This document shows positions 11,320 to 21,519 of a stretch of 54,598 bases of DNA, piece by piece. A model generated the notes under the pieces. That model made no database searches. It was not told the DNA's origin and saw only the letters and a list, made by a program, of their open reading frames with translations. Source of the DNA: Bacteroidota bacterium. Its GTDB lineage: Bacteria; Bacteroidota; Bacteroidia; B-17B0; Aurantibacillaceae. The translations under genes and the position numbers were made by a program. The first letter of the stretch is position 1, and each line of letters begins with the position of its first letter. The stretch lies in contig JAUXSA010000090.1 in the NCBI GenBank assembly GCA_030681615.1, forward strand, positions 1 through 54,598, read 5' to 3'.

Positions 11320-11832
11320 ATGAAAATACTATTAGAGAGGTTATGGCATAAAGACAAAGATTGTCTGGCCATAAAATTTAAGTATGATATAACCATTTTT
11401 AATTTGCTAAGAAAAATTGAGGGTGGCAGATGGAGCAAAACGCATAGAGCCTGGCTACTCGACTTTACACAAAACACTGTAAACGAAGTTTGTAAATTGT
11501 TAAATAACGAATACTCTATCATTTTTAAAGATGATCTGAAGGAAGTTGAAAAAATAAAAACCTATAACGAGTTACAACCTGTTAATGCTTTAGCAGGACT
11601 TAACGAAGAAACTCAGAAAAAAGTAAAAGAATTTGAGAATTGGACGCGCTCTAAGCGTTACAGCGAAAGTACCATTGGTACCTATACAGATGCCCTTAGG
11701 ACATTTTTACGTTTTTATGCAAACAAACCTGTTGCTGAAATAAATAATAATGACGTAATCGTTTTTAATAATGAATACATTATTAAAAATAAATTTTCTT
11801 CTTCATATCAAGCCTACAGTTTAACTCCTTAA
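11320..11832 (+). pseudogene. Truncated tyrosine recombinase (N-terminal part only)
   Basis: 170 residues. The C-terminal half has the SAM-like core-binding domain of tyrosine recombinases (FENWTRSKRYSESTIGTYTDALRTFLRFY...). The N-terminal 80 residues resemble the arm region of Bacteroidota Xer-like recombinases. The frame ends just after the SSSYQA position, where the helix leading to the catalytic domain should continue; no R, H-x-x-R or Tyr motifs follow. The gene is therefore cut off, next to the converging STAS-like gene. It is not an integron integrase as far as it can be read, since the catalytic domain and any IntI-specific insert are absent. Confidence 0.75.
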
Positions 11833-12233
11833 TCTCTATCGAGTAATTCCGAATATCTGATACCTTGTATCAAAAGCCAGTTATATGCTTCGTCATAATC
11901 CGAAAATATTTTTGTTGGTATTGTAGGTTTGTTTAATCCTGTGTAGAAAGATAGCAACACTCTAGTAAAAATAGACCCTTTAACAACCGCTCTCGCTATA
12001 GTTTGCTTTGCGTCAACACTATTTATTAATTCACGCGCGCGCTTTTCAACCCTAAAAAACGCCCGTGCATCAATTAACTTTAAAGCTTTCTTTCCTTTGG
12101 TGCAAGATTTCACAACAAGCAAGTTGTCCATGGCATCTTCGTAATCCACGCGTACCTTATCAAGCATCTGTATATGCAGTACTCTATTCTCGTCCATATA
12201 AATTGTAGCAGTTCGGGTTGTTATTTTCTTCAC
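11829..12233 (-). CDS. Small STAS-like protein (hypothetical)
   Basis: 134 residues from a GTG at 12231-12233. The frame is open to 12509, but residues before the GTG look non-coding and overlap the divergent gene. The segment TATIYMDENRVLHIQMLDKV ... LKLIDARAFFRVEKRARELI ... NKPTIPTKIFSDYDEAYNWL resembles small STAS/SEC14-like alpha-beta proteins of Bacteroidota that I recall, with the 'LKLIDAR' strand at the centre. The role is unknown. It converges on the truncated recombinase and diverges from the LuxR-type regulator. Confidence 0.55.
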   Translation of the reverse strand: MKKITTRTATIYMDENRVLHIQMLDKVRVDYEDAMDNLLVVKSCTKGKKALKLIDARAFFRVEKRARELINSVDAKQTIARAVVKGSIFTRVLLSFYTGLNKPTIPTKIFSDYDEAYNWLLIQGIRYSELLDRD

Positions 12234-12452
12234 GGTTGAATGTATTGCTATTATAACTGCAATAATATATTCAAACAATAAGTGGTCAGTTTGGTCATAT
12301 AACTGGTAAACCTGGAGTATTAATTGGTTAGAGTTTCCCTTTTTGAGTTTAGTACCGCAAACAGGGTAACCCCTTCGTGGTATTAGCATCACCTCTTTGG
12401 GGTATTTTGAACTTGTAATTAGTTTTCGAGTTCCTATTAGCATATTTTCGCT

Positions 12453-12471
12453 GTTTAGAATCATTCTAAAC
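12453..12471. promoter_or_regulatory. 19-bp palindrome upstream of the LuxR-type regulator
   Basis: GTTTAGAAT-C-ATTCTAAAC, a perfect dyad with 9-bp arms and a single central base, ending 10 bases before the regulator's ATG at 12482. The position fits an autoregulatory operator. Confidence 0.5.
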
Positions 12472-12481
12472 ACGAACTTTG

Positions 12482-13099
12482 ATGAAATCCGTCTGCATAC
12501 TTGAAACAAGTTACATCGTTAACGAAGGGCTTAAGCACATTGTGTCCGGCTTAAACGACTTCAGAATAAAAGCGCACTTTGAAACTCTAAATGCATTGGA
12601 AAAGTTTGCCGATATAAAAAATTGCAACCTTTTAGTTTGCAATCCCGACCTGATAAAAAACTCTCACGCACTTACTAAACTAAGAATAAATAATCCATCA
12701 TTAAAAATCTTAATGATTGATCAGGAGAAGAACGCTTACAAAGATTTTTTTACTCCTGCTTCTGTTGATGGTTATATATTTTTATGCTGTCATACCGAAG
12801 AAGTTTTAAAAGCGCTTTTGGCCGTCGCGCACGGCGAAAAGTTTTTTTGCGATAAAGCTCTCGGTTATATCTTAACCTCCAAAAACAATGTGCAGTCATG
12901 TAATCCGATCAATTTATCCGAAAGAGAAATTGAAGTATTAAAACTAATTGTAAAGGGGCATTCTTCAAAAGAAATTTCTGAAGAGATCAACGTAAGTATT
13001 CATACTGTAAATACGCACAGAAAAAATATGTCCAGAAAATTAAAGGTGAACAAAGTAAATGATCTTATTGCAAAAGCACATAAATTAAAGATAGTATAA
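12482..13099 (+). CDS. NarL/LuxR-type transcriptional regulator with degenerate receiver
   Basis: 205 residues from the ATG at 12482 (an in-frame TTG lies just before it). The N-terminal 125 residues have receiver-like strand/helix spacing, but the phosphoacceptor position reads LLVCNPDL, with Asn in place of the usual Asp. The C-terminal LuxR HTH is intact (LSEREIEVLKLIVKGHSSKEISEEINVSIHTVNTHRKNM...). It therefore probably acts without phosphorylation. It lies just upstream of, and on the same strand as, the haem-acquisition operon, which makes it a candidate regulator of that operon. A palindrome overlaps its promoter. Confidence 0.82.
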   Translation: MKSVCILETSYIVNEGLKHIVSGLNDFRIKAHFETLNALEKFADIKNCNLLVCNPDLIKNSHALTKLRINNPSLKILMIDQEKNAYKDFFTPASVDGYIFLCCHTEEVLKALLAVAHGEKFFCDKALGYILTSKNNVQSCNPINLSEREIEVLKLIVKGHSSKEISEEINVSIHTVNTHRKNMSRKLKVNKVNDLIAKAHKLKIV

Positions 13100-13154
13100 T
13101 ATACCCTATTTACGCTACTTACATCAAGCGATATAGTTTAACCATTTGTGGCGA

Positions 13155-13207: not shown

Positions 13208-14464
13208 ATGAAAAAAAATCTACTCATTTTAGCGCTTGCCCTTGTTACAATAACAACAAAATCGCAGGTAATTATTGATACAGTAGCCATAGGCGCCGGA
13301 TATGCTAATCAAGTTTGGTACAGTTTAGCAAATGACAACCAAGGCACAGCTCCAAAAAACAATTGGGACTTAGCTTTTGATGCGTCCGGTCAAGGCTCAA
13401 CTATTTTAATCAATTCAGTAACAGGTACAACTTTATGGCAATACCCTAGTGCGGACACTACAGGCTGGAACACGTTAGACACTACAGGCATTAATTCCTG
13501 GTCTAAACGTTGGAACTCTGATACTTCTTGGGCAATGGGCGCAATGGGGCGTTATGCTTCTATAAGCAATTCCAATGATTTAGATTGGGGTATTTACAGT
13601 TCAATCACTCATATTGTAACAGGTGATTCTCTTTACGTGATTAAATTAGCGAGTGGCGCTTACAAAAAATTACACATTCGTAATTTAAGTAGTGGCGCTT
13701 ACAATTTCCGTTACGCAGATATAAACGGAGCAAACCTACAAAATGCTACATTAACAAAGTCAAATTATACAGGACAAAATTTCGGTTACTACTCTATTCA
13801 AAACAATACTGCATTATCGCGTGAGCCACTTTCTGCAAATTGGGATCTATTATTCGGCCAATACACAACCTACATTCCAAGCCCATATACAGTTACTGGA
13901 ATCTTACACAATAAAGGTGTTAAAGTTGCCGAAGTAAAACCAATTGCCAATGCAAACTCATACGTAAACTGGTCGGTTCATCCATTTAAAAATGCGATTA
14001 ATACAATTGGTTACGATTGGAAAGTATTTACCACTTCATTTATAATTGAAGATTCCCTCGTTTACTTTGTACAATCTAAACCGGGCGCTATTTGGAAAGT
14101 TATTCCAACAGGCTTTGGCGGTAGTGCAAACGGAAATAACATTTTCTCAAAAGAAATGATAAGCGCTGTTGGCATTAACGAAGCAAACGGAAGCAATATT
14201 GCAACAATGGCTCTTTATCCTAATCCTTCACAAGGAAACGATGTAACAATAATTCTTTCTACAAACGAATTAGTTCAGGTTCCTGTTCTTAAAGTTTATG
14301 ATTTAAACGGAAAGCTCATTAAAGAAATGCAGTTAAATAATGCAGTAAATAATCAAATGAATTTGTTCCACATCAACACCGAAGATTTTGAAAATGGCAT
14401 TTACGTTGTAAATCTTACTATCGGCAACTCATCTGCAAATCAAAAATTAGTAATAACGAAATAG
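13208..14464 (+). CDS. HmuY-like secreted haem-binding protein with T9SS sorting domain
   Basis: 418 residues. A signal peptide (MKKNLLILALALVTITTKSQ) leads into a HmuY-like beta domain (about 25-290) with the paired 'NWDLAFDASGQGS' and 'NWDLLFGQYTTYI...YTVTGILHNKGVKVAEV' blocks. The C-terminus (about 335-418) is a T9SS sorting domain starting MALYPNPSQG and ending NQKLVITK. HmuY proteins capture haem outside the cell and pass it to a TonB receptor. It is the first gene of the operon that contains such a receptor. Unlike classical HmuY lipoproteins it would be exported by T9SS. Confidence 0.82.
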   Translation: MKKNLLILALALVTITTKSQVIIDTVAIGAGYANQVWYSLANDNQGTAPKNNWDLAFDASGQGSTILINSVTGTTLWQYPSADTTGWNTLDTTGINSWSKRWNSDTSWAMGAMGRYASISNSNDLDWGIYSSITHIVTGDSLYVIKLASGAYKKLHIRNLSSGAYNFRYADINGANLQNATLTKSNYTGQNFGYYSIQNNTALSREPLSANWDLLFGQYTTYIPSPYTVTGILHNKGVKVAEVKPIANANSYVNWSVHPFKNAINTIGYDWKVFTTSFIIEDSLVYFVQSKPGAIWKVIPTGFGGSANGNNIFSKEMISAVGINEANGSNIATMALYPNPSQGNDVTIILSTNELVQVPVLKVYDLNGKLIKEMQLNNAVNNQMNLFHINTEDFENGIYVVNLTIGNSSANQKLVITK

Positions 14465-14476
14465 TAAAAAACCCTT

Positions 14477-15439
14477 ATGAAAAAAAGATCTCTTTTAAGT
14501 TCTGTTTTAGGAATTGTAATCCCCTTGGTGATTATTGTTTTGATGTGCTATTGCCAATCAAATGCCGAAGTTGAAACAAAGTCTGACCCAATGGCAAATA
14601 AAAAAATTGGCGTGTTAATGGTAAATCATGGTTCGCGTTCCGAAACATGGCGTAATGCGCTTTTGGCTCTCGAAACAAGTGTGAAAGATTCCATTCTAAA
14701 AAGCGGTGTAGTGAAAGGTACCAAAACCGCCTTTATGGAATACAATGAGCCATCAATTGCCACTCGCTTAAAAGAGTTTGATAAAGAAGGATACACAGAT
14801 GTAATAATCATTCCAATCTTTTTAACTGTAAGCCCACACTCGTTCGATGATATTCCAACTATAATAGGTCAAAAAGAAAATCCTGAATCAATGGAAGCAT
14901 TGAAACTGGAAAAGATTGAGCGTTATACACCAAAAGCCAAAACATATCTTACTCCATTGTTAGATTTTACGGATATGCTTGAAAAAAATATACTTCGCCG
15001 TTTCCAAGCTATTTCAAAAGACGCATCTAAAGAAGGTTTGGTAATGATGGCTTATGGTGATGTAACCTATGTAAAAGAATGGTCAGAGCTTTTAACTAAA
15101 GTTGGAAACTATGTTTCAAAAAATACAGGCATGACAGATTTCTCTTACGGTTGGTGCGGCCATATTGCACATTACAATCCCGATTCAACAACGGTTGCAA
15201 TTAATCGAGTACTCAAGAAAAAAGAGGTTGCAGTGGTTATTCCTGTATTAGTAGCGCATGACGAAATGTTTCAAATCAAAATCATTGGAGATGGTATCGG
15301 AAAAATTAAAAACGATAAAGACAAGGTGATATACAAACCAGATGCCATTCTGCCTGATGCCAACGTTGAAAAATGGGTTATTAGTGCTGCTGCCGATCAG
15401 TTAAATAAAATTATTAGCGAAAGTAAGCCTGCACTTTAA
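14477..15439 (+). CDS. CbiK-like class II chelatase, lipoprotein
   Basis: 320 residues. The N-terminal hydrophobic segment ends in LMCYCQSN, consistent with export and possible lipid attachment. The rest is a CbiK-type chelatase: KKIGVLMVNHGSRSETWRNAL near 40-60, IIIPIFLTVSPHSFDDIPTIIG, GYGWCGHIAH-like SYGWCGHIAHYNPDS and PVLVAHDEMFQIKIIG. CbiK enzymes insert cobalt into sirohydrochlorin in the cytoplasm, but an exported copy inside a haem-uptake operon is more likely to bind or demetallate tetrapyrroles, by analogy with HmuS in hmu operons. That role is inference. It follows the HmuY-like gene after 12 bp. Confidence 0.78.
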   Translation: MKKRSLLSSVLGIVIPLVIIVLMCYCQSNAEVETKSDPMANKKIGVLMVNHGSRSETWRNALLALETSVKDSILKSGVVKGTKTAFMEYNEPSIATRLKEFDKEGYTDVIIIPIFLTVSPHSFDDIPTIIGQKENPESMEALKLEKIERYTPKAKTYLTPLLDFTDMLEKNILRRFQAISKDASKEGLVMMAYGDVTYVKEWSELLTKVGNYVSKNTGMTDFSYGWCGHIAHYNPDSTTVAINRVLKKKEVAVVIPVLVAHDEMFQIKIIGDGIGKIKNDKDKVIYKPDAILPDANVEKWVISAAADQLNKIISESKPAL

Positions 15440-15441
15440 CA

Positions 15442-16017
15442 ATGTCGAGCAAGTTACTGCAAAAGATAAGGCGTTTAAATATTGCAACGCATCGTGATGT
15501 AGGGTATTTCTTTTCAAGTTTAATAATCATTTATTGCTTGTCAGGAATTGCCCTTAATCACGTTGATGATTGGAACCCCGATTTTATAATCTCTAAAAAA
15601 ACAATTCACTTTAAAGAAAATTATAAAGCAAAAGAGGTAACCAAAGCAGATGTTGAAGTGTTTAATAAAATGGTTGGTGAAGATAAATACAAAGTTTTTG
15701 ATGCCCCAACCTTCGACCAGGTTAAAATATATTATGATAATGCTACTTTACATTTAAACTTTACAACACACGAAGGCTCTTACGAAAGCATAACAAGACG
15801 ACCCATCTTTTATCAGGTAAACGTTCTTCATAAAAACAGCCTCAAGGGTTGGAAATGGGCATCAGATGTTTTTGCAGTAATGCTAATTGTAATTAGTATT
15901 ACTGGCTTATTTATTCTAAAAGGGAAAAACGGTTTCCTGTCCGGTCGTGGTAAATGGTTAGTACTTGCCGGTCTCTTGCCTCCAATTGTAGCATGGATAA
16001 TTCACGCTCTTATATAA
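15442..16017 (+). CDS. PepSY-associated membrane protein
   Basis: 191 residues. It has the short PepSY_TM pattern: an N-terminal helix (HRDVGYFFSSLIIIYCLSGIAL) followed by NHVDDWNPDF, a soluble periplasmic part (about 40-130), then NVLHKNSLKGWKWASDVFAVMLIVISITGLFIL and a final helix. Related proteins occur beside iron and haem receptors and may act in ferric or haem reduction at the inner membrane. It starts 2 bp after the chelatase stop, a sign of tight coupling. Confidence 0.8.
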   Translation: MSSKLLQKIRRLNIATHRDVGYFFSSLIIIYCLSGIALNHVDDWNPDFIISKKTIHFKENYKAKEVTKADVEVFNKMVGEDKYKVFDAPTFDQVKIYYDNATLHLNFTTHEGSYESITRRPIFYQVNVLHKNSLKGWKWASDVFAVMLIVISITGLFILKGKNGFLSGRGKWLVLAGLLPPIVAWIIHALI

Positions 16018-16038
16018 TAATCTCAAAAACAAAATATC

Positions 16039-16197
16039 ATGGCAAATAACAAACAACCCGGCATCAAAGAAAAAAAAGAAATAGGAAACGAGAAACTAAA
16101 AAATGAGCAGCAGGTTAAAATCTTTATTCAGCTACTTGATGTAAAGAAGGACACAAATATGACTCGAATTTATTCCGTTCTTAGCTCATATAGATAA
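16039..16197 (+). CDS. 52-aa hypothetical protein in the haem operon
   Basis: ATG at 16039, 52 codons, then tandem TAA codons. It is charged (MANNKQPGIKEKKEIGNEKL...) with a C-terminal amphipathic stretch (QVKIFIQLLDVKKD). It lies 21 bp after the PepSY gene and 12 bp before the receptor, in a dense operon. No family is recognised. The tight spacing and clean reading frame are the only evidence. Confidence 0.45.
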   Translation: MANNKQPGIKEKKEIGNEKLKNEQQVKIFIQLLDVKKDTNMTRIYSVLSSYR

Positions 16198-16209
16198 TAA
16201 TTTTAAAAA

Positions 16210-18294
16210 ATGATTCTCCCAAATGCAAAAACTAACAAAACCATCATCAACTTATTGATGGTTTTTTGCATTTACGTAAGCCAAGCACAGACACCCGATA
16301 CTTCCAAACTGAACAAAACTCAAAATTTAGAAGACGTGGTTGTAACCGCGCAATATCAGCCCAACACCATTGATAAATCCACGTACAAAATAAAAGTAAT
16401 TGATGCTGAAAAGATTCAGGCTTTAGCGGCAGTTAATTTGAAAGACGCATTAAGCAATGAGTTAAACATCCGTTTTTCTCAAGATCCCGTTTTAGGAAGT
16501 AGTATTAGTCTACAAGGTTTATCAGGACAAAATGTAAAAATCTTAATTGACGGTGTTGCTTTGATTGGCAGACAAAACGGTAATTTAGATTTATCTCAAA
16601 TAAACATCAATAATATTGAACGGATTGAAATCGTCGAAGGCCCTTTATCTGTAACCTATGGTACAAATGCTTTAGCAGGTGTTATTAATATAATAACCAA
16701 AAAACCGAAAACAAATTCCGTTGGCGCGGGTTTAAATTTATATTATGAAACAAACAATACTTATAATGCAGGACTTAATTTTTCGGCAAGAAAGAAAAGT
16801 CACGGTTTTACAGCAAACATTAACCGCAATTATTTTAATGGTTGGAATATTAAAGACAAACAGTATTTAGTTCCTGAAAAAACATTGGCAGATACAAATC
16901 GTTTCAAAAGTTGGAAACCAAAAGAGCAATATTTTGGTGACATACAATACAACTTTGAAAAGAGCAAATTCAAACTAAACTATCGCACCGCTTACTTTAA
17001 CGAGCTAATCGTAAACCGTGGCTTTCCGTTAAAACCCTATTATGAAGCCGCGTTTGACGACTATTATAAAACACAACGCTTAGACAATACGCTCTATACA
17101 AACATAAAATTCAAAAACTTTAAATCTTACAACAATACGCTTGCCTACAATTACTATAGGCGCGATAAAACCACTTATTATAAAAACTTAACTGATCTTA
17201 CTGAACAGCTATCTCCTGACAGCTCATTACAAGACACCGCAGTATTTACTGCTGCAATGGCACGTGGTTCGTTTATCAGCAGTAAACCCTACGAAACTTG
17301 GGAAGATACAATTGCAAAGCACAACTGGCTAAACTATGAATTAGGATATGACCTAAACTATAATTATGCATTAGGGAAACGTATAAAAAATAAAACACAA
17401 GTCATTGGCGATTATGCAGCTTTTGCAAGCGCCGAAATTCAACCTTATAAAAACTTTATCATAAGACCGGGATTACGTTATGCCTACAATACAGTTTATA
17501 AATCACCCTTAACCCCTTCTTTTAATATCAAGTTCAATATAAATCACTGGACATTTCGTGCCTCTTACGCTAAAGGCTTTCGCGCGCCCGACTTAAAAGA
17601 ATTATACTTTGAATTCGTCGACATCAATCATAATATTTTTGGTAATACAGAATTAAAACCTGAACAATCGGATAATTATAATCTTAATGTAAAATTTTCA
17701 AGGAAAAAATTAGATAAAGATTTTTCTTTTGATGTTTCCGCATTTTATAATGATATAGACAATCTCATTACACTTGCCTTACTTAGCGGTTCACAATATT
17801 CGTACATTAATATCGGTAAGTTTAAGTCTTATGGTACTTCCTTAAATGGAACTTATACTCATAAGAAGTTAACTCTTTCGGCAGGAACATCGCTTATAGC
17901 CAGATATAACGATCTTAGTTCTGATTTTTCAAACGTTGAAGAATTTTCCTATACACCCGAAGCAAGAGCATCAGTTCAATATAAAATAGAAAAGTGGAAA
18001 ACATACATAAATTGCTTCTATAAATACTCAGGTAAGTTACCAGGATACAATCAAAATAGCGACGGAACAGTTAGTCAAACATTTGTTCAGGATTTTCACA
18101 TGTTAGACGCAAATATTTCAAAACAATTATTTAAAAACCGACTTTCATTAAGCGCAGGCGTGAAAAATGTTTTGAACGTGAATAATGTCACGGCAAGTTT
18201 AGCGGGTGGTGCACATTCAGGTAATTCATCATCAACGCCGATAGCTATGGGTAGAACCTACTTTATTAAGTTACAATATGCATTTGAAAAGTAA
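16210..18294 (+). CDS. TonB-dependent outer-membrane receptor, probably for haem
   Basis: 694 residues. It has a signal peptide (to about residue 27) and a plug domain with a TonB-box-like LEDVVVTAQ followed by GLSGQNVKILIDGV, NIERIEIVEGPLSVTYGTNALAGVINIITKK, then a 22-strand-type barrel ending in an aromatic residue region (YFIKLQYAFEK). RASYAKGFRAPDLKELYFEF is the typical barrel motif. Length and plug fit HmuR/BtuB-like receptors. Substrate assignment to haem rests on flanking HmuY-like proteins. Its last 17 bases overlap the next gene. Confidence 0.88.
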   Translation: MILPNAKTNKTIINLLMVFCIYVSQAQTPDTSKLNKTQNLEDVVVTAQYQPNTIDKSTYKIKVIDAEKIQALAAVNLKDALSNELNIRFSQDPVLGSSISLQGLSGQNVKILIDGVALIGRQNGNLDLSQININNIERIEIVEGPLSVTYGTNALAGVINIITKKPKTNSVGAGLNLYYETNNTYNAGLNFSARKKSHGFTANINRNYFNGWNIKDKQYLVPEKTLADTNRFKSWKPKEQYFGDIQYNFEKSKFKLNYRTAYFNELIVNRGFPLKPYYEAAFDDYYKTQRLDNTLYTNIKFKNFKSYNNTLAYNYYRRDKTTYYKNLTDLTEQLSPDSSLQDTAVFTAAMARGSFISSKPYETWEDTIAKHNWLNYELGYDLNYNYALGKRIKNKTQVIGDYAAFASAEIQPYKNFIIRPGLRYAYNTVYKSPLTPSFNIKFNINHWTFRASYAKGFRAPDLKELYFEFVDINHNIFGNTELKPEQSDNYNLNVKFSRKKLDKDFSFDVSAFYNDIDNLITLALLSGSQYSYINIGKFKSYGTSLNGTYTHKKLTLSAGTSLIARYNDLSSDFSNVEEFSYTPEARASVQYKIEKWKTYINCFYKYSGKLPGYNQNSDGTVSQTFVQDFHMLDANISKQLFKNRLSLSAGVKNVLNVNNVTASLAGGAHSGNSSSTPIAMGRTYFIKLQYAFEK

Positions 18295-19264
18295 GATAGT
18301 CTTGTTTAGTTTATGTTCTGTGTTATTGCTGTTTTCGGCTTCCTGCCGGAAGTCGGAGATAGCAATAAAACCATTAGACCGAGGCGACGTAATTACAGCT
18401 TCGGTTGACATGAATACAGATTATAAACAACAAATATTTTTCTCTTTATCAGAAAACGTAATAATTTCAACCAATGTAAAAACCATTTGGGATATTGGTT
18501 TTGAATGTAGTTCATCTGGTTTTCATCTCAAAATAAATACCGCTAAAGCAATGAGTGTTTACAATACAAACCAAACTGCATTTACAGCAGTTAGCGACAC
18601 CATCGGTTTAAGTTCAAACAGGAAATACGATTCTCCAACAGGTAATTTAGATAGTATGGCCTTTGGTAATTGGCAAATCAATATGCCTGTTTACATAGTT
18701 GATCGTGGATATAACGAGGCCGGAACACAGTTAGGATATAAAAAAATACAAATCCTTTCTGTAACAGCTACAGTTTACAATGTAAAAATATCAAATGTAA
18801 ATGGAAGTAACGAGGTAATAGTTACAGTACCGAAAAACACAAATCTGAATTATGTTTATTTTTCTTTCAATTCTAATACGGTTGTAAATGTTGAACCTGA
18901 TAAAGAAACCTACGACTTGTTATTTTCGCAGTACACACACATTTATAGTAATCCGTTTTCAGTCTATTTAGTAATGGGTGTGTTAATTAATCCAAATAAA
19001 GTAAAAATTGCTACTGTGTTTGACAAGCCTTTCAACGAAATTACGGTAAATGATACAACCTCACATCCCTTCGGCACGTTTCATAATACGATTGGATACT
19101 ATTGGAAGACTTATAGCTTTCAAAGTTCGTCATATGTAATTAATTCGAATATGAGTTATATTATTAAGGATGTAAAAGGGTTTTACTACAAACTACACTT
19201 TATAGATTTTTATAATTCGGTTGGTGTGAAAGGTTACCCTAAATTTGAATTTAGGAAACTATAA
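18278..19264 (+). CDS. HmuY-like haem-binding lipoprotein
   Basis: 328 residues. The lipobox LLLFSASC puts the acylated Cys at about 23, so this is an outer-membrane lipoprotein. The body has the HmuY pattern seen in the first operon gene: 'IWDIGFECSSSGFHLKIN' and 'YDLLFSQYTHIYSNPFSVYLVMGVLINPNKVKIATV'. Its start overlaps the receptor gene by 17 bp, implying translational coupling and partnership with the receptor. It would take haem from carriers and hand it to the receptor. The operon thus carries both a T9SS-exported and a lipid-anchored HmuY-like protein. Confidence 0.82.
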   Translation: MHLKSKIVLFSLCSVLLLFSASCRKSEIAIKPLDRGDVITASVDMNTDYKQQIFFSLSENVIISTNVKTIWDIGFECSSSGFHLKINTAKAMSVYNTNQTAFTAVSDTIGLSSNRKYDSPTGNLDSMAFGNWQINMPVYIVDRGYNEAGTQLGYKKIQILSVTATVYNVKISNVNGSNEVIVTVPKNTNLNYVYFSFNSNTVVNVEPDKETYDLLFSQYTHIYSNPFSVYLVMGVLINPNKVKIATVFDKPFNEITVNDTTSHPFGTFHNTIGYYWKTYSFQSSSYVINSNMSYIIKDVKGFYYKLHFIDFYNSVGVKGYPKFEFRKL

Positions 19265-19728: not shown

Positions 19729-21519
19729 ATGCATAAGGATTCAGACAGTAAGTGCGGTCAAGTTGGACTTAGGAATTCCGGAATAGAAATTCTTGGAGAA
19801 CTCCCATGGGGTTCTCACTTTTGTAATTTTTTCGATAATAAAGAGGACTTACTGCAATTAATTATACCCTATTTCAAGGCGGGATTAATAAATAATGAAT
19901 TTTGTCTCTGGATAACATCAGATCCTATAACTGTAGAAATAGCTTACGAAGAATTACGAAAGGAAATTCACGATTTTGATAAATATGAAAAAAAGGAGCA
20001 AATCACAATACTTTCCCACACAGATTGGTATTTGCAAGACAAAACGTTCGTACCTGATATTGTTGTCAACGGCTGGTATCAAAAGCTAGAAAAATCATTG
20101 AATAAGGGATTTGATGGAATGCGTGTAAGCGGTAACGAAGCATGGTTGGACCGCGAGGTTTGGAAGAATTTCATAGACTATGAGCGAAACCTGAATAACA
20201 GCCTCACAGGTAAACGCATGATTGTTCTTTGTACATATCCCCTTGACAAATGTGATGCGCAAGCTGTATTTGACGTATCACAGGTACACGAGATTGCGGT
20301 GACAAAAAGAAAAGGCGATTGGGAAATTATCGAAGTGCCGGCAATAAAAAAAACAAAATCACAACTGGCCAGTGATAAAAAGGAACTGGAAGATAAAGTA
20401 GCAGAACGCACGAAGGAGCTGACTGTTATCAATACAAAATTGATAACAGAGATTGAACAGCACAAAATCACTCAAGATATGCTGCTAAAAACTGAAGCCA
20501 AACTCCGTACAGTATTTGACGCTACGGATACGGCTTATATATTACTTGAAGCTGACTTGTCAATTCTTCTTTTTAACCATCGCGCAGCCGATTTTACCCA
20601 AAAAGTATTTTATTGGAATCTGAAAACAGGAGATAATATTTATGATTTTCTTACAGCAGACAGGAAAGTTCTTTTTGCAGACAGAGTGCTGAGAGCTCTT
20701 AAAGGAGAGCAAATCAGCTATGAAACCAATTATGTATTGAAAAATGAATCCTCGTTATGGTATGATGTGAGACTCTTTCCTATTCTAAAAGACGATAAGG
20801 GTATTTTTGGTCTGGTACTTGCATTAACCGATATCACTGAAAGAAAATTGTTGGAAATTCAGCTTGAAAGAGAAAGAATAGAAAAGCAGCAGGAGATAAC
20901 TGATGCTGTTATTACTGCAGAAGAAAACGAACGGCAGGAAATTGGCCGTGAATTACACGATAATATCCAACAAATATTGGTTGGCGCCCGGATGTTTATT
21001 TCTATGATTAAAAAAGAGGACATTTCGGAATCACGTTATTCAAATCTGGAGCAAACTAATCAATTGATTTTGTCTGCAATTACTGAGATCAGAAATTTGT
21101 CTCATTCCATGATCTCTCCGTTTATGGAATCAACTACCCTTAAGGAGGCCATCGAAAAAGTAGTCTTTAACATAACAAGTGCTAGCGGAATAAAAATTAA
21201 AATGGAAGTTACTGGGCTTGATATCGAGAAGCTATCTGAAAAACTCCGACTAACAACCTATCGTATTATCCAAGAGCAGTTCAATAATATTCTTAAGTAC
21301 GCAAAAGCATCATCAGTATTGCTGAAAATTGTTCAGGATAATGAGAAACTGACATTGATAATACAGGATGATGGTATAGGTTTTGACGCGTCAAAAAAAA
21401 CAACAGGTATCGGGCTGATGAATATCAAAACAAGGGCTTCTCTTTTTAATGGTGAAGTTAGAATTCGTTCTTCAATTGGACAGGGCTTTGAGTTATCTGT
21501 TACAATGAAACTTAAATAA
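19729..21519 (+). CDS. MEDS-PAS sensor histidine kinase (HisKA_3 type), carried as a cassette
   Basis: 596 residues. The N-terminal MEDS domain (about 15-200: LGELPWGSHFCNFFDNKEDLLQLIIPYFKAGL...) is a P-loop-like sensory module first noted in DcmR-type regulators. A coiled-coil linker leads to a PAS domain (about 255-385). The HisKA_3 dimerisation helix has the phospho-His in EIGRELHDNIQQ (about 404), and the HATPase has the N box (EQFNNILKYAKA), DDGIGFD and GIGLMNIKTR. There is no membrane segment, so it is a cytoplasmic sensor. A response regulator would be expected to be of NarL type and is not adjacent. The gene lies between matched cassette ends at 19647 and 21659-21668, so it appears to be an unusually large cassette. 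Confidence 0.85.
   Translation: MHKDSDSKCGQVGLRNSGIEILGELPWGSHFCNFFDNKEDLLQLIIPYFKAGLINNEFCLWITSDPITVEIAYEELRKEIHDFDKYEKKEQITILSHTDWYLQDKTFVPDIVVNGWYQKLEKSLNKGFDGMRVSGNEAWLDREVWKNFIDYERNLNNSLTGKRMIVLCTYPLDKCDAQAVFDVSQVHEIAVTKRKGDWEIIEVPAIKKTKSQLASDKKELEDKVAERTKELTVINTKLITEIEQHKITQDMLLKTEAKLRTVFDATDTAYILLEADLSILLFNHRAADFTQKVFYWNLKTGDNIYDFLTADRKVLFADRVLRALKGEQISYETNYVLKNESSLWYDVRLFPILKDDKGIFGLVLALTDITERKLLEIQLERERIEKQQEITDAVITAEENERQEIGRELHDNIQQILVGARMFISMIKKEDISESRYSNLEQTNQLILSAITEIRNLSHSMISPFMESTTLKEAIEKVVFNITSASGIKIKMEVTGLDIEKLSEKLRLTTYRIIQEQFNNILKYAKASSVLLKIVQDNEKLTLIIQDDGIGFDASKKTTGIGLMNIKTRASLFNGEVRIRSSIGQGFELSVTMKLK

Follow-up and report, generated by a model that had tools for sequence, protein, structure and literature searches.

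How is iron released from haem outside the cytoplasm when the enzyme expected for this step is missing, and where do the electrons come from? The operon at 13208-19264 raises this question, since it appears to carry a different class of chelatase in the place that HmuS holds in hmu operons. Periplasmic removal of haem iron in Bacteroidota and its electron source are stated as open in the available parts of two papers (PMC13227078, PMC6460266). The window, i.e., the whole stretch of 54,598 nucleotides analyzed here, contains the following features:

12454..12470, no strand assigned: palindromic operator-like site TTTAGAATCATTCTAAA, exact match, preceding the LuxR-type gene ahead of the operon
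12482..13099, plus strand: LuxR/NarL-type regulator (PF00196 GerE, 61 bits)
13101..13118, plus strand: second palindromic operator-like site, consensus ATACCnnnTTTAnGGTAT, with 2 mismatches here
13208..14464, plus strand: secreted HmuY-like protein, apparently double, with a T9SS type A sorting tail (PF18962, PF14064, TIGR04183)
14477..15439, plus strand: predicted exported lipoprotein, class II chelatase of the CbiX/SirB type (PF01903, 45.8 bits)
15442..16017, plus strand: PepSY_TM membrane protein (PF16357, 54 bits)
16210..18294, plus strand: TonB-dependent receptor, haem-receptor-like (PF00593, 122.4 bits; PF07715, 78.8 bits)
18278..19264, plus strand: predicted lipoprotein, HmuY-like and apparently double (PF14064, 58.7 bits, two stretches)

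The five operon genes share one strand, are separated by 12, 2, 192 and -17 bases and follow each other in the order T9SS-tailed double HmuY, lipoprotein chelatase, PepSY_TM, TonB receptor and lipoprotein double HmuY. An earlier note on this DNA gave their coordinates and reading frames correctly. It had also placed the chelatase between the T9SS-sorted HmuY-like protein and the TonB receptor; this order holds, but the PepSY_TM gene at 15442-16017, which had been overlooked, intervenes. Identical genes in identical order are present in three further loci (L009, L010 and L011), and L012, whose contig starts inside the chelatase, has the last four genes of the set. Owing to this repetition, the grouping is not a matter of chance. 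A scan of named genomes yielded 175 relatives, of which the best 80 were retained for locus counts. All five genes were found in 20 of these best 80, including L009-L011 themselves, and 19 of the 20 keep this order; L017 has all five in a different order, and in L023 the receptor is split over two frames.

The chelatase family is patchy. With the own genome counted in, a search of 60 related genomes detected it in 5, and a search of a phylum sample of 296 genomes detected it in 9 (E up to 1e-20). Five genomes of one family in the phylum sample (f38) have two or more chelatase matches each. The best 80 of the 175 relatives are titled Bacteroidota, Nitrospira, Chlorobiota, Verrucomicrobiota, Phycisphaerae, Chloroflexota and others. 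Metagenome bins account for nearly all loci, so that single odd phylum titles may reflect contamination. All ten Nitrospira rows group as a single clade in the tree (100/100 support), and L046 belongs to a named strain, Runella limosa DSM 17973.

Additional frames surround the operon. A possible 52-aa open frame, read from the sequence, lies at 16039-16197 between the PepSY_TM and receptor genes; the same gap in L012 holds an unrelated-looking 110-aa frame with relatives somewhere in L023, L024 and L049. Upstream of the operon and divergent from it is a DUF7793-type gene (11829-12509, minus strand, 67.2 bits), a relative of which, identified by phmmer, is located downstream of the operon in L010 (16748-17158, minus strand). 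A MEDS-PAS histidine kinase is encoded downstream of the operon on the same strand (19729-21519).

To which chelatase branch does the 320-aa protein belong? The label CbiK-like given by the earlier note did not hold: the protein passes the CbiX profile (PF01903, 45.8 bits, cut-off 22) and fails the CbiK profile (PF06180, 13 bits, cut-off 26.2), and its best fold match is SirB. The CbiX profile matches 43/43 aligned members of the family at E 0.05 or better and the CbiK profile 18/43, with a best E of 0.0004. A CbiK-type identity is thus ruled out by the profile scores, and a CobN profile match was not found in the protein. Among named sequence models the top scores come from sirohydrochlorin chelatases, every one of them under its cut-off, and the matches among solved structures are sirohydrochlorin chelatases as well. 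The predicted structure (pLDDT 89.9) superimposes on SirB (5zt8_B) with a Z-score of 19.0 and an rmsd of 3.5 over 241 residues at 18% identity, followed by CpfC ferrochelatase (Z 16.2), periplasmic CbiK (15.7), CbiK (15.3) and Porphyromonas gingivalis FetB (14.5). Sequence and modeled fold together place the chelatase in the CbiX/SirB branch, not with CbiK or HmuS.

Residues H51, E88 and H121 are kept in 84/84 aligned chelatases, the window included, and align with the His/Glu/His letters of SirB, which we take to be its metal-site residues. Additionally, C227 and H229 are present in 82/82 sequences, H261 in 62/82 and H232 in 53/82. The N-terminus shows a hydrophobic leader with a lipobox-like Cys26. 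This cysteine is found in 4/4 sequences of a first alignment, window included, and a cysteine stands at the same column in 66 of the 75 sequences that have a letter there in a wide alignment, which supports the export or lipoprotein signal predicted earlier.

Other arrangements were seen in Nitrospira and Chlorobiota. In eight Nitrospira loci (L039, L061-L064, L069-L071), the pair of chelatase and PepSY_TM has a further exported protein nearby, about 500-665 aa long and apparently built of two chelatase units; the copy that was scanned, from L070, reaches 24.6 bits with CbiX. Some of these loci add a secreted protein of the 255-aa type and a haem-type TonB receptor. Profile comparison gave no match of this 255-aa neighbor as a distant HmuY, and its end presumably resembles a PEP-CTERM tail. 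The Chlorobiota loci L075 (310-2980) and L089 encode a chelatase, PepSY_TM and a second chelatase consecutively.

The association with PepSY_TM was counted over 81 loci (L012 to L092); L009-L011 were dropped as duplicates and the window was excluded. Leaders were called by hydrophobicity and, for L076, L085 and L091, by reading; L012 is cut at its start. Exported chelatases occur in 76/81 loci, and PepSY_TM lies directly downstream in 75 of the 76; the one other locus is truncated by the end of its contig. The remaining five chelatases are leaderless, i.e., cytoplasmic, and none of them has PepSY_TM (0/5); as they form one clade, this absence counts as one event and not as five. The conserved core is chelatase plus PepSY_TM. 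HmuY was found within 6 kb in 38/81 loci and a TonB receptor in 41/81, both being undercounts, since the receptor beside the pair in the Nitrospira locus L063 (TIGR01785, 274.6 bits, cut-off 316.85) was missed by these profiles. Where 2.5 kb or more of flanking sequence is available in both directions (61 loci), these profiles detect PepSY_TM together with HmuY and a receptor in 34 cases, PepSY_TM with a receptor in one, PepSY_TM alone in 22 and none of the three in four.

The partner is a protein of 191 aa that exceeds the PF16357 cut-off of 27 bits and reaches 23.4 bits with PF03929, under the cut-off of 28.8; PF16357 matches 41/41 members of the partner set. Three histidines are conserved: H17 in 72/73, H40 in 73/73 and H130 in 74/74 aligned sequences. 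In the model (pLDDT 82.5, pTM 0.58), one PepSY domain sits between the first and second of three membrane helices, with the third helix last. H17 is inside helix 3-39, H40 at its end and H130 ahead of helix 137-158, within or beside a stretch of low confidence around residues 121-140. Fold searches with the model gave neither FoxB nor another clear match (best E 0.056 in Foldseek; best Z 6.2 in VIA), nor was a FoxB sequence found with the PepSY_TM profile at E up to 5. These negative results are taken as neutral. The accessible text of PMC13038864 and PMC11334425 describes PepSY_TM proteins as haem-carrying proteins that reduce metals in the periplasm, and the latter, as far as available, groups PepSY with FMN-binding proteins as components that move electrons across the inner membrane. 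Judged from the Pfam assignment and the conserved histidines, the haem sites here are putative: one haem might be held between H40 and H130 and a second might be shared across a dimer via H17. The partner is a probable haem-ligating electron supplier.

A replacement of this partner was observed in Persicobacter. Three records were obtained in a plasmid protein search, two of them from Persicobacter with most of the query covered; they lie outside the 81-locus count. Both Persicobacter plasmids encode an exported chelatase, followed by a single long open frame (1223 or 1211 aa) and, after it, a short HmuY-like gene. The P. psychrovividus frame (L118) matches FMN_bind (45.8 bits) and Fer4_5 (47.5 bits), followed by TonB receptor domains; the gene after it matches HmuY at 39 bits, and no PepSY_TM match was found at this chelatase locus. 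Strain JZB09 (L119) has the same arrangement, its frames read by eye only. The PepSY_TM protein is therefore not strictly required by the exported chelatase. That one electron-transfer module is swapped for another is the strongest hint that the partner delivers electrons. In both plasmids (L118, 6902-10573; L119, 6941-10576) the FMN_bind/4Fe-4S module, assigned by Pfam for L118 only, is fused to the TonB receptor; it presumably resembles NosR. A signal-peptide-like stretch lies between the two fused parts, possibly marking one precursor whose cleavage yields one protein for the inner and one for the outer membrane.

The two HmuY-like proteins and the T9SS sorting of the first, both claimed earlier, are supported by profile matches, and both proteins additionally look like tandem doubles. 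The product of 13208-14464 starts with a signal-peptide-like stretch, scores 23 bits with PF14064, under the cut-off of 27 bits, and has a T9SS tail (PF18962, 48 bits; TIGR04183, 44.8 bits). The product of 18278-19264 is over the PF14064 cut-off, with a lipobox-like Cys23 in 5/5 sequences. Profile comparison between the two proteins gave 99.2% for the N units and 99.9% for the C units; N against C unit inside one protein gave 45 and 56%. Against canonical HmuY of neighboring loci, the units of the first protein reached 94.9% (N) and 56.5% (C) and those of the second 96.2 and 97.4%. The own genome holds no HmuY matches beyond these two. The haem ligands of P. gingivalis HmuY are a His pair. Comparison with 3h8t for these known ligands gave a weak alignment only. 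The best NCBIfam models for the receptor are TIGR01786 (139 bits) and TIGR01785 (134 bits), both far under their cut-offs, and it scores 121.7 bits against a B12-receptor model.

The idea that the chelatase takes the place of HmuS gained support, as did the haem context of the operon. In L079, the chelatase and PepSY_TM come after a canonical hmuY (119.5 bits) and a TonB receptor gene. CobN/HmuS (PF02514) was not found in the own genome, which is 97.8% complete, nor in 48 of 50 other chelatase-bearing genomes; it is present in 2. R. defluvii has CobN, and in the genome of R. limosa none was found. These 50 genomes are 50 of the best 80 of the 175 relatives' loci, nearly all titled Bacteroidota, with other phylum titles left out. 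The own genome has ferrochelatase (HemH) and FeoB (535 bits). No sirohydrochlorin-making methylase was found in it, the sole gene detected of the TP-methylase family being RsmI. Among the 50 others, whose completeness is not given, no genome exceeds four TP-methylase matches, and in 14 of them a match reaches 145 bits or more, taken as the uroporphyrinogen-methylase class.

Is the operon under iron or haem control? We take TTTAGAATCATTCTAAA to have a 7-1-7 shape with the core AATnATT, like sites of the Fur superfamily, and the spacing of ATACCnnnTTTAnGGTAT presumably resembles a 7-2-7 NarL-type site. The unit possibly starts with the LuxR/NarL-type regulator; L014, L017, L019, L047 and L067 each have a relative on the same strand ahead of the secreted HmuY or the chelatase. 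At up to 2 mismatches TTTAGAATCATTCTAAA occurs once in the 54.6 kb, which is not rare, as 26 of 100 shuffles also had one. The own genome holds two sites at up to 1 mismatch (control pattern 0), the other one upstream of a cytochrome c gene. At up to 3 mismatches, TTTAGAATCATTCTAAA-like sites precede 14/21 secreted-HmuY genes (0.37 expected) and occur in 14/59 other upstreams (0.67 expected), and ATACCnnnTTTAnGGTAT in 14/21 (0.57 expected) and 7/59 (1.1 expected); both motifs had been selected visually from the 21 upstreams ahead of the counts, and since the sequences are related, the 59 are a partial check only. The scanned length was 827 bases for the window, about 250 for the other 20 and about 360 for the 59. 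In the window alone ATACCnnnTTTAnGGTAT is barely above chance (16 against a mean of 10; 4/100 shuffles as high). Exact TTTAGAATCATTCTAAA sites number 12 in 9 of 23 chelatase-bearing genomes, five of them at the chelatase operon by position, which agrees with the exact sites seen in the scan of upstreams. Two of the seven outside it precede nqrA and a cytochrome gene, one is at a TonB-receptor-like gene read by eye (L109), one is inside a reading frame (L117), and those in L111, L114 and L116 precede genes that are unannotated or have no evident iron link (L116 radical-SAM-like by eye). An operator-like site was not found at the FeoB locus, so that the evidence falls short of a classical Fur regulon. 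The candidate sites are compatible with iron or haem control.

The system most likely works like a haem-iron extraction system, and we give about even weight to a haem-iron acquisition module with reductive demetallation in the periplasm. The secreted double HmuY would collect haem, the lipoprotein double HmuY would take it over at the cell surface and the TonB receptor would import it. In the periplasm, the lipoprotein chelatase of the SirB type would run in the iron-releasing direction via His51/Glu88/His121, while the inner-membrane PepSY_TM protein would give electrons through bis-His haem; iron would exit as Fe(II) and enter by FeoB. Haem as the substrate, the releasing direction, the electron flow and the FeoB entry are what we infer from gene content, the export signal, the intact SirB-type site, the near-constant pairing with PepSY_TM, the electron-transfer swap in Persicobacter and the lack of a recognizable sirohydrochlorin route in the own genome. 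Reports of PepSY_TM reductases, the HmuY and receptor neighbors, the haem-type receptor of L063, the presence of HemH and FeoB and an operator-like site common to cytochrome c and nqrA genes point the same way. Several observations count against this mechanism: the partner lacks a FoxB match and its H130 is next to a low-confidence stretch, in 22 of the 61 loci with long flanks these profiles detect neither HmuY nor receptor beside the pair, the Persicobacter exported copies do without PepSY_TM, the receptor scores under the haem-family cut-offs, the cytoplasmic copies are one event and the FeoB locus has no operator-like site. Known SirB-type enzymes, moreover, act on sirohydrochlorin. Loss of a cbiK-type gene in B. 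fragilis was reportedly without effect on haem-iron use, and the dechelatase for haem iron there is still to be identified (unpublished data and text in the available part of PMC6460266). For P. gingivalis FetB, the accessible portion of PMC13402209 names manganese insertion as an activity and iron removal as a possible one.

Other roles for the chelatase have to be weighed against reductive demetallation. It might be a haem carrier or store between receptor and inner membrane, with PepSY_TM reducing or handling the bound haem and no demetallation taking place. The periplasmic CbiK of Desulfovibrio vulgaris, which shares the fold (2xvz, Z 15.7), binds haem, and the title of 9b86, 'FetB apo from Porphyromonas gingivalis without heme group', implies a haem-bound form of FetB; the whole SirB-type site kept in 84/84 chelatases is, however, beyond a carrier's needs, and we consider this role unlikely. 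An enzyme that exchanges or adds metal in imported porphyrins, as reported for FetB with manganese in the part of PMC13402209 available, would also fit the related fold of 9b86 (Z 14.5). Such insertion leaves both the electron-transfer-type partner and its replacement in Persicobacter unexplained, which makes it quite improbable in our view.

We attach little probability to another metal complex as the substrate, be it a copper complex or a cobalt tetrapyrrole, in which case PepSY_TM would be the metal reductase. The score of the receptor against the B12-receptor model is not far under those of the haem models, and a copper-reductase role has been proposed for CrpH, a PepSY_TM protein found next to a copper importer of the TonB type (PMC13038864, available text); HmuY within 6 kb in 38/81 loci and the haem-type receptor of L063 argue against such a substrate. 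Ordinary metal insertion into sirohydrochlorin receives almost no credence, although the best named models, all under their cut-offs, and the solved-structure matches are sirohydrochlorin chelatases. The chelatase has an export signal, only RsmI of the TP-methylase family was found in the own genome, which is 97.8% complete, and the 50 other genomes, of unstated completeness, have at most four matches each, 14 of them with one of at least 145 bits. For the own genome this activity was rejected on the RsmI finding; sirohydrochlorin cobalt insertion, which the earlier note had set against its own reading, is hence unlikely.

Periplasmic demetallation by an exported class II chelatase would not stand alone, since such chelatases linked to haem have precedents. 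We take IhtB and FetB of P. gingivalis to be one protein. Exported and CbiK-like, it shares the class II fold (9b86, Z 14.5, rmsd 3.9, 230 aligned) and is absent from the sequence matches of the chelatase at E up to 1; unlike it, the present system has a SirB/CbiX-branch enzyme, a PepSY_TM partner and double HmuY proteins. IhtB was suggested to strip haem of its iron extracellularly (Dashper 2000, cited in the available part of PMC6460266). The periplasmic CbiK of D. vulgaris, compared by fold, is an exported class II protein too, but of the CbiK branch. SirB/CbiX sirohydrochlorin chelatases are the best fold match with an aligned His/Glu/His, whereas the chelatase here, at 18% identity, is a predicted exported lipoprotein in a haem-type operon. 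HmuS occupies the same slot after hmuY and receptor, as seen in L079, and has the same proposed job of periplasmic iron removal from haem, but it is a class I, CobN-like protein of about 1,450 aa with a membrane anchor, compared to 320 aa here; its physiological electron donor is stated as unresolved (PMC13227078, accessible text). FoxB, HiuB and CrpH share the PepSY_TM-type profile, conserved histidines and a position beside TonB receptors; PepSY_TM reductases are described in the available parts of PMC13038864 and PMC13001220. Unlike these three, the protein here is paired with a chelatase and has one PepSY domain and three helices in the model. By description, a pepSY gene lies near Porphyromonas hmuY clusters (PMC12106395, figure legend) and PepSY-domain genes lie near TonB receptor genes in iron-starvation loci of B. 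thetaiotaomicron (PMC10434189), and the portions of these sources at hand mention no such chelatase. Literature joining CbiX and PepSY was not found, and the chelatase-PepSY_TM pair is not described in the accessible text on CbiX with a hemophore.

We tentatively propose, with somewhat less than even confidence, a two-part haem dechelatase spread over several phyla, in which a SirB-type periplasmic lipoprotein would work with its own membrane electron supplier, namely the PepSY_TM cytochrome or, in Persicobacter, a flavin/iron-sulphur module. If true, this would be a solution for obtaining iron from haem that is separate from HmuS and from haem oxygenases. As the chelatase and its candidate electron supplier are genetically tied, the electron-donor question becomes testable with two small proteins.
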